A DNA stretch of 39,549 nucleotides from positions 1-39,549 of the forward strand of contig JAPUDS010000031.1 in NCBI GenBank assembly GCA_027492975.1. The letters are read 5' to 3'. The translations under genes and the position numbers were made by a program. Of this stretch, positions 1-24,785 are shown one piece after another (positions within the stretch are counted from its first letter, which is position 1; the number at the start of each line of letters is the position of its first letter). This DNA is from Candidatus Saccharimonadota bacterium (GTDB taxonomy: Bacteria > Patescibacteriota > Saccharimonadia > Saccharimonadales > Saccharimonadaceae). The notes under the pieces are model-generated. The model saw only the letters and a program-made list of their open reading frames with translations, searched no databases and was not told the origin of the DNA.

Positions 1-468
1 AGTAATGCTTTTGCGATCCAGGTGTGGGTAGATAGCCAGATGGACCCACCACAGCCCGGTCATGACGTATCGATCACCAATGTGGAGTTTCTCGTACGGG
101 AGGATTCCTTCAAGCTCGCGGACCACGTTCGTTCGGACGCTGAGATGTTTGGCGAAGGGTCGCAATATCTAAAAGACGCAAGGGTTTCTTTCGACGACGC
201 CAAAGTGATGAACGGTGCCATGTGGCAGCGTGCCTTTGGCGAGCACCTCGCTATCGATGATATGTTCCAGGCATTTTCACCAACCGGCAATAGCTTCCGG
301 ATCGCCCCGGCCTATACCGCCGAGGAGTGCCCCGATTGTCTCAGGGAACAGGATGCTAGGCGCGAAGTCCGGTTCGCAGTAGATGAGCAACGCGAGATCC
401 GTGCAGTTAAATTTGACCTAACTATCGACGGCGTCAAAAAAACCGTTGCCTATGCCACTGCTTGGTAG
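1..468 (+). CDS. C-terminal part of a secreted or membrane-anchored paralog (5' end outside window)
   Basis: The reading frame is open from base 1, and its first residues (SNAFAIQVW) align with the middle of the next gene (MDQFAISIW). This is therefore the 3' part of a longer gene whose start lies outside the window; the internal GTG at 22 is not the start. The remaining residues align with the C-terminal half of the 504-1358 protein. Shared landmarks are NVEFL/NIEFL, MWQRAFG/LWQRAFG, FSPTGNSFRIAPA/YSPSGNTFQIAPA, a CPDC/CPEC pair and AVKFDLTIDG/AIKFDLTVDG. No known family is recognised. The paired cysteines suggest a domain folded outside the cytoplasm. Confidence 0.75.
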   Translation, partial: SNAFAIQVWVDSQMDPPQPGHDVSITNVEFLVREDSFKLADHVRSDAEMFGEGSQYLKDARVSFDDAKVMNGAMWQRAFGEHLAIDDMFQAFSPTGNSFRIAPAYTAEECPDCLREQDARREVRFAVDEQREIRAVKFDLTIDGVKKTVAYATAW

Positions 469-503
469 GCTTGAAGTGTAAAATATAAGAAAGGTAGCCA
501 AAA

Positions 504-1358
504 ATGTTTCCCAACAATCCTCAACAACCAAACCAGCCTCCGGTAAACCCATATCAGGCGCAACCGCCAGTTATGTCATCACCTGAGCAGCCAAAAAGCA
601 AGAAGAAACTATTCATTGTAGGGATTATCATTGCCATTGTAGTCGTGGCAGGCGTACTCCTCTGGCTGTTAGTTTTCTCGAGCAAATCCGACTCTGATAG
701 TTCAACGCAAAAACAAGCAAATAGCGCTCAAAATTCTTCTGATCTTGGCAAGGATTGCGAGGGTAAGGCTCTCCCAGATGTTGGTCAGTGGCAGGAATAC
801 TTGGTGGCTCGGGCAGAAACTCAAACCGGCATAGTTTCATGCGGCGTTACGGTGGGTGATTTGCGAGCGACCGTTCACGATCTGTCGGCGATGGATCAGT
901 TTGCGATTTCTATCTGGCCGAAAGACTTTCCCGACCAGCCATACCCGGCTCACAAAGTGACGGTTAGCAACATAGAGTTCCTTATAGGCAACACTACTTT
1001 CAAAGTCTCGGAGCATCTCGTCTCAGATAGCCAGAGCGACTTTGCCCGTTATCTTGAAGACGCCAAAGGAATGTACAAGACCTACCAGGTCAATCAAGGT
1101 AAGTTGTGGCAGCGCGCGTTCGGTCGTGAACTGACCTTTGATGAGGTGTACCAGGCATATTCACCCAGTGGCAATACATTCCAGATCGCTCCTGCGTTCT
1201 CGGACGATGAATGCCCTGAGTGCAGCTGGAATTGGGACTCCAACCGCAATATTCGCTTTGAAATCGACAATCCAGAGCAAACGACTGTGCGTGCTATCAA
1301 GTTCGATCTAACTGTCGATGGCAAAACAAAGACCGTCGCATTTGCTGTCGCCCAGTAG
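504..1358 (+). CDS. membrane-anchored protein, paralog of preceding gene
   Basis: The 284-residue protein starts with about 33 proline-, asparagine- and glutamine-rich residues, then SKKKLF and one strongly hydrophobic segment (about residues 36-58). A Ser/Asp/Asn-rich linker leads to an extracytoplasmic domain of about 210 residues. This layout predicts a single-pass protein with the C-terminus outside. The domain has four cysteines, one pair in CPEC, and ends in the block shared with the upstream gene. An AAAGG ribosome-binding sequence lies 9 nt before the ATG. The 35-nt gap after the first paralog resembles the sequence after this gene, so the unit has been tandemly duplicated. Function is unknown; a surface or cell-contact role is only a guess. 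Confidence 0.8.
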   Translation: MFPNNPQQPNQPPVNPYQAQPPVMSSPEQPKSKKKLFIVGIIIAIVVVAGVLLWLLVFSSKSDSDSSTQKQANSAQNSSDLGKDCEGKALPDVGQWQEYLVARAETQTGIVSCGVTVGDLRATVHDLSAMDQFAISIWPKDFPDQPYPAHKVTVSNIEFLIGNTTFKVSEHLVSDSQSDFARYLEDAKGMYKTYQVNQGKLWQRAFGRELTFDEVYQAYSPSGNTFQIAPAFSDDECPECSWNWDSNRNIRFEIDNPEQTTVRAIKFDLTVDGKTKTVAFAVAQ

Positions 1359-24160: not shown

Positions 24161-24196
24161 TTGACAAATAGTACCCTGAGCGGGTACTATTTTTTG
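24161..24196 (+). promoter_or_regulatory. promoter with internal palindrome, or terminator of secY (both readings fit)
   Basis: TTGACA (24161-24166), 18 bp, TACTAT (24185-24190) is a near-consensus promoter for the structured RNA downstream. The same bases hold the palindrome AATAGTACCC (24167-24176) / GGGTACTATT (24182-24191), with a 5-bp centre, followed by a T-run, which as RNA is a good intrinsic terminator for secY. Both could be true, and the palindrome between -35 and -10 could also be an operator. Confidence 0.6.
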
Positions 24197-24338
24197 TAAG
24201 CTAAAAAGGTTGAGTGGACCACTCCCTGACAACTAGCCCTTTGATATGCAAATGGTAGCTGCTCGTGTTGAGCGCTAGTATGTGAAATAGCTTTGACATA
24301 CATGCGCTCAACAAGGAGCAGACACAGGAGGTAAACCT

Positions 24339-24443
24339 ATGATCGGAAACGGTATCGTCGACATCGGCCCGCCGAGGGGCTGCATCGACACCACGGCCAA
24401 CATGATCTTCGACTCCGACTGCGGCGCCGCCGCGACCACCTGA
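24339..24443 (+). CDS. small ORF (34 aa) inside the structured segment
   Basis: AGGAGG (24326-24331) stands 7 nt before the ATG, ideal spacing. The peptide starts MIGNGIVDIGPPRGCIDTTA and ends DSDCGAAATT. Codons are strongly GC-rich in third position, unlike infA or secY. The long hairpin at 24259-24321 ends 4 nt before the ribosome-binding site. A further 11-codon frame, MYKLRDKPSPR, starts at 24466. Translation is plausible but unproven. Confidence 0.45.
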   Translation: MIGNGIVDIGPPRGCIDTTANMIFDSDCGAAATT

Positions 24444-24629
24444 CCAACGACGAACAGGGCTACTCATGTACAAGCTGCGTGACAAACCCAGCCCGCGGTA
24501 GCGGGCTCGACAAGGCGTGGAGCTTCTCATCGAAGCTCGGACGCGTCACGATCCTTAACCACCGCTAGTCTCTGAAGGGGCGGACACCGGCACTCTTCGT
24601 GCCGCTACAAGCCCGCCTCTTCAGGACAG

Positions 24630-24671
24630 CCTCCGAGAGGAGGATTATGACCGACAGCTAAGCATCCTCCT
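24630..24671 (+). promoter_or_regulatory. mutually exclusive hairpins over a Shine-Dalgarno and four-codon ORF
   Basis: GGAGG (24639-24643), 3 nt before ATG ACC GAC AGC TAA (24647-24661, MTDS), can pair with CCTCC (24630-24634) across a GAGA tetraloop. Alternatively AGGAGGAT (24638-24645) pairs with ATCCTCCT (24664-24671) across the mini-ORF. Both cannot form at once, the logic of an RNA switch or attenuator. Confidence 0.45.
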
Positions 24672-24764
24672 ATCACAGTTCTGGGCGGGAACGGCAGTGC
24701 GTAAGCCTGTCGTTCCCGCTCCCTGTGATTCACATTTGCATATCAAATACAACAGATTTACCTC

Positions 24765-24785
24765 AGCGCCACAGGGCGCTTTTTG
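24765..24785 (+). terminator. intrinsic terminator after the structured segment
   Basis: AGCGCC (24765-24770) and GGCGCT (24775-24780) with an ACAG loop, followed by TTTTG and more T residues; 17 nt after the closing inverted repeat. Confidence 0.85.

Follow-up and report, generated by a model that had tools for sequence, protein, structure and literature searches.

A putative end-closed structured mRNA encoding a 34-residue orphan peptide in the secY–infA gap of a Candidatus Saccharimonadota bacterium

The window, i.e. the whole 39,549-nt stretch of DNA analysed here, carries secY and infA, and the gap between these genes holds a GC-rich unit whose features are collected in Table 1. The promoter and the terminator that a first-pass annotation had assigned to this unit were both found in place. 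However, the –10 box of the promoter sits in the stem of a terminator-like hairpin downstream of secY (24166–24196, exact arms of 11 nt), which is a caveat for its assignment.

The same annotation had described perfect 15-bp arms about 480 nt apart; the arms were exact, with a spacing of 478 nt. In a scan of the 39.5-kb window for perfect inverted repeats (12 bp or more, spaced 200–900 nt), these arms were the only hit. With the arms confined to the observed positions, the energy of the closing helix was reached by 0/5000 shuffles, and in wider search windows 1/2000 shuffles were as good. The 601-nt segment was calculated to fold at –261 kcal/mol (z –13.1, matched by 0/20 shuffles) and its opposite strand at z –8.9, figures which, like all fold figures for the unit, are limited by the unreliability of energy models at 590 nt. 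Many strong stems were predicted, where at least six had been claimed; their outermost pairs were 24259/24321, 24266/24313, 24278/24301, 24490/24507, 24520/24538, 24572/24624, 24588/24604, 24672/24729 and 24683/24721.

Table 1. Features of the window unit and of its counterpart in the sister species G001
Feature	Position	Strand	Remarks
Promoter-like TTGACA-18-TACTAT	24161–24190	+	10/12 consensus matches
Probable secY terminator AAATAGTACCC TGAGC GGGTACTATT TTTT	24166–24196	+	inverted repeat AAATAGTACCC/GGGTACTATTT, then T run
5' stem GCTA...TAGC around GAGTG/CACTC	24200–24237	+	pair probabilities 0.89 and 0.80
5' arm of long-range closing helix, TTTGATATGCAAATG	24240–24254	+	15 bp, perfect with 24733–24747; pair probability 0.97
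Large 5' hairpin CTGCTC + TGTTGAGCGC + GTATGT	24259–24321	+	predicted fold
Shine-Dalgarno (SD) AGGAGG	24326–24331	+	7 nt upstream of ATG 24339
34-aa ORF MIGNGIVDIGPPRGCIDTTANMIFDSDCGAAATT, then stop	24339–24443	+	SD AGGAGG; GC3 0.94; N-terminus kept in G001
Hairpin AGCCCGC/GCGGGCT	24490–24507	+	predicted fold
Hairpin GCGT + GAGCTTC/GAAGCTC	24515–24544	+	predicted fold
Hairpin CTGAAGGGGCGG/CCGCCTCTTCAG, inner CGGCAC/GTGCCG	24572–24624	+	predicted fold
Alternative local hairpin GGAGGAT/ATCCTCC	24639–24671	+	rivals SD for CCTCCT 24666–24671
Large 3' hairpin ATCACAG + GGGCGGGAACGGCAG	24672–24729	+	predicted fold
3' arm of long-range closing helix, CATTTGCATATCAAA	24733–24747	+	pairs exactly with 24240–24254
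Intrinsic terminator AGCGCC-ACAG-GGCGCT-TTTTG	24765–24785	+	
G001 promoter TTGACA-17-TATCAT	same place as promoter of window unit		
G001 large 5' hairpin	transcript positions 61–119		size and position as 24259–24321, sequence different
G001 ORF of 48 codons, MIGNGFKLGNIGPPTADQFLSFATVGDNKGTFSCITIISNTTTAAITG, then stop (begins MIGNGFKLGNIGPP...)	same secY–infA gap		GC3 0.90
G001 hairpin AGCCCGCT/AGCGGGCT	secY–infA gap		
G001 14-bp hairpin	469–516		same relative place as 3' hairpin 24672–24729
G001 strong GC-rich hairpin	before end of gap		

The ORF at 24339–24443 had been overlooked in the first-pass annotation. Its GC content by codon position was 0.47/0.56/0.94, compared with a GC3 of 0.51–0.61 in the neighbouring genes. 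Such a strong third-position bias is a sign of coding and is unexpected from RNA structure alone. By inspection, the peptide contained no membrane-length hydrophobic, membrane-spanning or signal-like stretch. Three other small frames were set aside because their translation was poorly evidenced: MYKLRDKPSPR (24467–24502) in the window, MVIYMICRLDQERR in G001, and MTDS within a hairpin, each ending at a stop codon.

The genus comparison comprised two further species, G001 and G002. In G001, the secY–infA gap was 953 nt long without a long gene, and its counterpart of the unit, which also carried a 5' stem upstream of the large hairpin, folded at z –8.6. The stem sequence of hairpin 24490–24507 recurred at the same relative place (428–447). 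The peptides of the two species had MIGNG, IGPP and a few C-terminal residues in common and nothing more. A closing helix was also found in G001, formed by CGTTAATATGTAGTTT beside the large 5' hairpin and AAACTACCTATTGACG before the last hairpin, with 15/16 pairs; its energy was reached by 7/5000 shuffles at fixed positions, and 59/2000 shuffles were as good in wider search windows. Because plain MAFFT of both units failed to superpose the arms, the positions of the 5' and terminal hairpins served as reference points for aligning them. Among 14 aligned pairs, counted by eye, 7 were unchanged, 5 were changed on both sides, 1 was changed on one side and 1 was broken, in a comparison of two sequences whose structure-placed alignment leans towards structure, the G001 arms having come from an independent fold.

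The secY–infA gap of G002 held, instead of the unit, an open frame of 379 aa that weakly matched a membrane protein. A DNA pattern for MIGNG...GPP was found in 2/394 family genomes, exactly at the window unit and in the G001 gap, and the reversed control gave 0 in both. In GTDB contigs the pattern gave 8 matches, of which the only convincing one was the G001 record (Candidatus Saccharibacteria bacterium isolate INTA.AUR.006); the other 7 were rejected as chance. A profile search of the 394 family genomes yielded, beyond G001, only weak matches, which on inspection were not start-anchored small ORFs. Neither the 34-aa peptide of the window unit nor the 48-aa peptide of G001 matched Pfam, NCBIfam or PHROGs, and no match for the peptides was obtained in IMG/VR, by pattern or by alignment. 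In the phage protein search, the 34-aa peptide gave nothing beyond chance matches of 15 residues and the 48-aa peptide gave none; the plasmid peptide search returned nothing. At the DNA level, the comparison with 100 related genomes recovered nothing except the window unit itself. Comparison of the gap among relatives, as proposed by the first-pass annotation, brought a closing helix kept in G001 with compensatory changes, but no other homologues. In the data searched, the unit appeared to be limited to two species of one genus.

On the basis of the arms, the fold, the ORF, the kept peptide N-terminus and the closing helix kept with compensatory changes, all of which were obtained by computation, we read the unit as a stand-alone, end-closed structured mRNA of a 34-aa orphan peptide, with a probability of about 0.5. 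It had previously been taken for a stand-alone RNA gene. The part of this reading that concerns a separate structured transcript agreed with the predictions; its non-coding character was not supported in view of the perfect SD, the GC3 and the kept N-terminus.

That the unit is a structured RNA of unknown class with no coding role at all, its ORF being fortuitous, seems unlikely to us. The very strong fold, the compensated closing helix in G001 and the lack of any Rfam match that could be confused with it would suit such an RNA, but a correctly spaced perfect SD, a GC3 of 0.94 while GC1 and GC2 are near 0.5, and a start-anchored peptide conserved in G001 argue against it. ROOL, GOLLD and OLE are large ornate non-coding RNAs of bacteria. 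The unit resembles them as an RNA of ~600 nt with many stems and no obvious explanatory protein gene nearby; unlike them, it matches no Rfam model and holds a likely translated ORF.

In the full-length fold, the SD was predicted to pair with CCTCCT (24666–24671) 340 nt downstream with a probability of ~0.98. SD accessibility in this RNA was 0.02, compared with a median of 0.47 for 20 window genes, of which 1/20 was that low. Forcing the alternative hairpin at 24639–24671 cost just 2.6 kcal/mol (–258.2 vs –260.8), which makes two conformations plausible. For shorter transcripts with 3' ends at 24400–24650, SD accessibility was already 0.11–0.17, through other partners; end closure as a clean on/off translational switch is therefore not indicated, and this idea was dropped. 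Because the SD region of G001 was less buried (accessibility 0.30, without distant anti-SD pairing), we infer silencing for the window unit rather than regard it as a tested feature common to both.

These results suggest the following mechanism, in which transcription of the unit, production of the peptide and silencing by the fold would each be expected from the model. A monocistronic transcript of ~590 nt would serve both as mRNA for the 34-aa peptide and as a compactly structured RNA. Its 5' end would pair with the segment just upstream of the terminator, closing the whole molecule. With the SD paired to CCTCCT, the finished RNA would be stable and poorly translated; as for icaR and the aapA and hok mRNAs, the peptide would be made only after the RNA had been re-folded or processed at its 3' end. 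By analogy the unit may work like these mRNAs; we do not claim that it belongs to them.

One of the closest likenesses was to the aapA/IsoA type I toxin mRNAs of Helicobacter, which also have a short ORF and a long-distance 5'–3' interaction, and in which a distant anti-SD masks the SD of the full-length form while local pairing does so in shorter RNAs (PMC6733600). In aapA3, metastable SD-burying hairpins are followed by the final 5'–3' interaction (PMC6733600). In contrast to aapA/IsoA, the unit has a much greater length, numerous additional GC-rich hairpins and a non-hydrophobic peptide; it shows no sequence relation, and no antisense promoter was recognised in it by consensus scan. In the icaR mRNA of Staphylococcus aureus, a 3' anti-SD motif of the same mRNA likewise pairs with the SD (PMC3868564); icaR, however, encodes a full-size regulator and uses a single short motif, whereas the unit is folded throughout and has a separate 15-bp closing helix.

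Another rival reading is an aapA/hok-like type I toxin-antitoxin locus, comprising a silenced toxin mRNA with long-distance 5'–3' pairing plus an antisense RNA; we consider it quite improbable. The short ORF with a long-range 5'–3' helix is consistent with it, as is an SD that is held by a distant anti-SD and is poorly accessible in truncated forms too, as in aapA3 (PMC6733600). Both 5'–3' pairing and SD sequestration were found in the window unit; in G001, the helix was present and SD burial was partial. However, the peptide lacks the hydrophobic character of a membrane peptide, and the unit was not filed under type I toxins. The known families in Pfam, NCBIfam and PHROGs were unmatched, and a consensus scan, which is weak evidence, found no promoter-like site for an antisense transcript within the unit.

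The position of the unit was then considered across the order. In other families, the secY–infA gap was mostly ~40–140 nt. The first-pass annotation had suggested that the unit occupies the usual place of adk and map; because secY and infA are nearly adjacent in most of these families, adk and map have not been displaced. In Saccharimonadaceae, the gap was variable and contained a sortase gene (PF04203), other protein genes, or little, and it is an insertion hotspot in this family. In G018 (L017), the gap of 324 nt had no long ORF and folded as a whole into a single long, imperfect hairpin, with the look of a palindromic element. Upstream of infA in G106 (L204), two orphan ORFs of 115 and 162 aa were observed in the gap; an inverted repeat GACAGAGAG at 755 and 1314 suggests that a second cassette-like unit may stand there in tandem.

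A gap that is short in most other families and variable in Saccharimonadaceae would also accommodate a small mobile or foreign insert, i.e. terminal inverted repeats round GC-rich foreign DNA, and the interior GC of ~0.60–0.68 against 0.45–0.5 in the flanks points the same way. We nevertheless regard this explanation as very improbable. The arms are not outermost, since the promoter and the terminator lie outside them, and they differ between the species in a compensatory way. By DNA search the unit was present as a single copy in its genome (G000), where copies elsewhere had been named as a sign of a mobile element. Phage DNA showed no similarity to it, and plasmid DNA gave only five scattered, chance-level matches of ~30–40 nt.

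A known class of RNA (tmRNA, RNase P, SRP or 6S) in strongly diverged form would suit the size and structure but is hardly credible, and for tmRNA and RNase P it can largely be dismissed: as the first-pass annotation had held, no known class was recognised, since Rfam 15 gave nothing at the gathering threshold in the unit or its counterparts and only chance miRNA models in the unit at E up to 10, RF00023 (tmRNA) and RF00010 (RNase P) were absent from the window, and both RNAs were located elsewhere in 5/5 genomes tested (in this genome at G000:C26:17289-17680 and G000:C26:20425-20862, respectively).

In two other genera, the gap contained units on the opposite strand, with an ORF of 116 aa in G017 (L050) and of 95 aa in G058 (L077). 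Both were GC-rich and strongly folded, with a promoter, SD, ORF and terminator on the minus strand, and neither ORF had a convincing family match. When the ends of the fold were set at the predicted promoter and terminator, the transcript start was joined to the terminator by the outermost helix, which had 12 bp in G017 (12/3000 shuffles as good) and 10 bp in G058 (30/3000). As the sequences are unrelated, what these units have in common with the window unit is a layout rather than a demonstrated homology; the recurrence of end closure was counted in favour of the reading of the window unit as an end-closed mRNA. In other species of these two genera, such units were not seen in the secY–infA gap.

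Separately, a dispersed, covarying cassette family with SD/anti-SD arms was observed in Saccharibacteria, three family gaps having the arm GACAGAG(G/A)AG in common. In this GACAG/CTGTC family, the 5' arm GACAGAGGAG, which overlaps the SD, pairs with the 3' arm CTCCTCTGTC, and downstream of the latter follows CTCATCTC-covarying hairpin-GAGATGAG. The ORFs between the arms were unrelated (70–204 aa), and the five that were scanned had no Pfam match. The 3' element was found in 5 genomes by exact pattern and, by covariance model, in 20/394 genomes of 11 genera, although the weakest matches (E near 0.01) may have arisen by chance. The loci included L170–L174 and copies in G010, G048, G059, G131, G157, G044, G037, G196, G006 and others; about six were located between secY and infA. 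In 17 arm pairs, 8/12 positions were changed on both sides, with a covariation score of 0.400 vs 0.149 for shuffled arms, which is overstated because some 5' arms were picked by complementarity. By arm search alone, several weaker members were no better than shuffled arms. The inner hairpin covaried independently (0.386 vs 0.114). Model R1, which combines the 3' arm CTCTGTC with the CTCATCTC/GAGATGAG hairpin, had no match in the unit, G000 or G001, and membership of the window unit in this family was ruled out.

Saccharibacteria are episymbionts with very small genomes, and to our knowledge their regulatory RNAs have been little described. Tentatively, and with less confidence than the reading of the window unit itself, we suggest that they may contain an undescribed class of end-closed single-gene units, in which a helix between the transcript start and the sequence upstream of the terminal hairpin, often over the SD, encloses a fast-changing orphan ORF, with the secY–infA gap as a hotspot; within this class, the window unit together with that of G001, the GACAG/CTGTC family and the units of G017 and G058 would each represent a lineage of their own. 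A self-sealed structured mRNA with an orphan peptide would add this phylum to the bacteria that share the regulatory logic of icaR and a few toxin mRNAs, and the secY–infA spacer would offer a defined place for studying the origin and replacement of orphan units.
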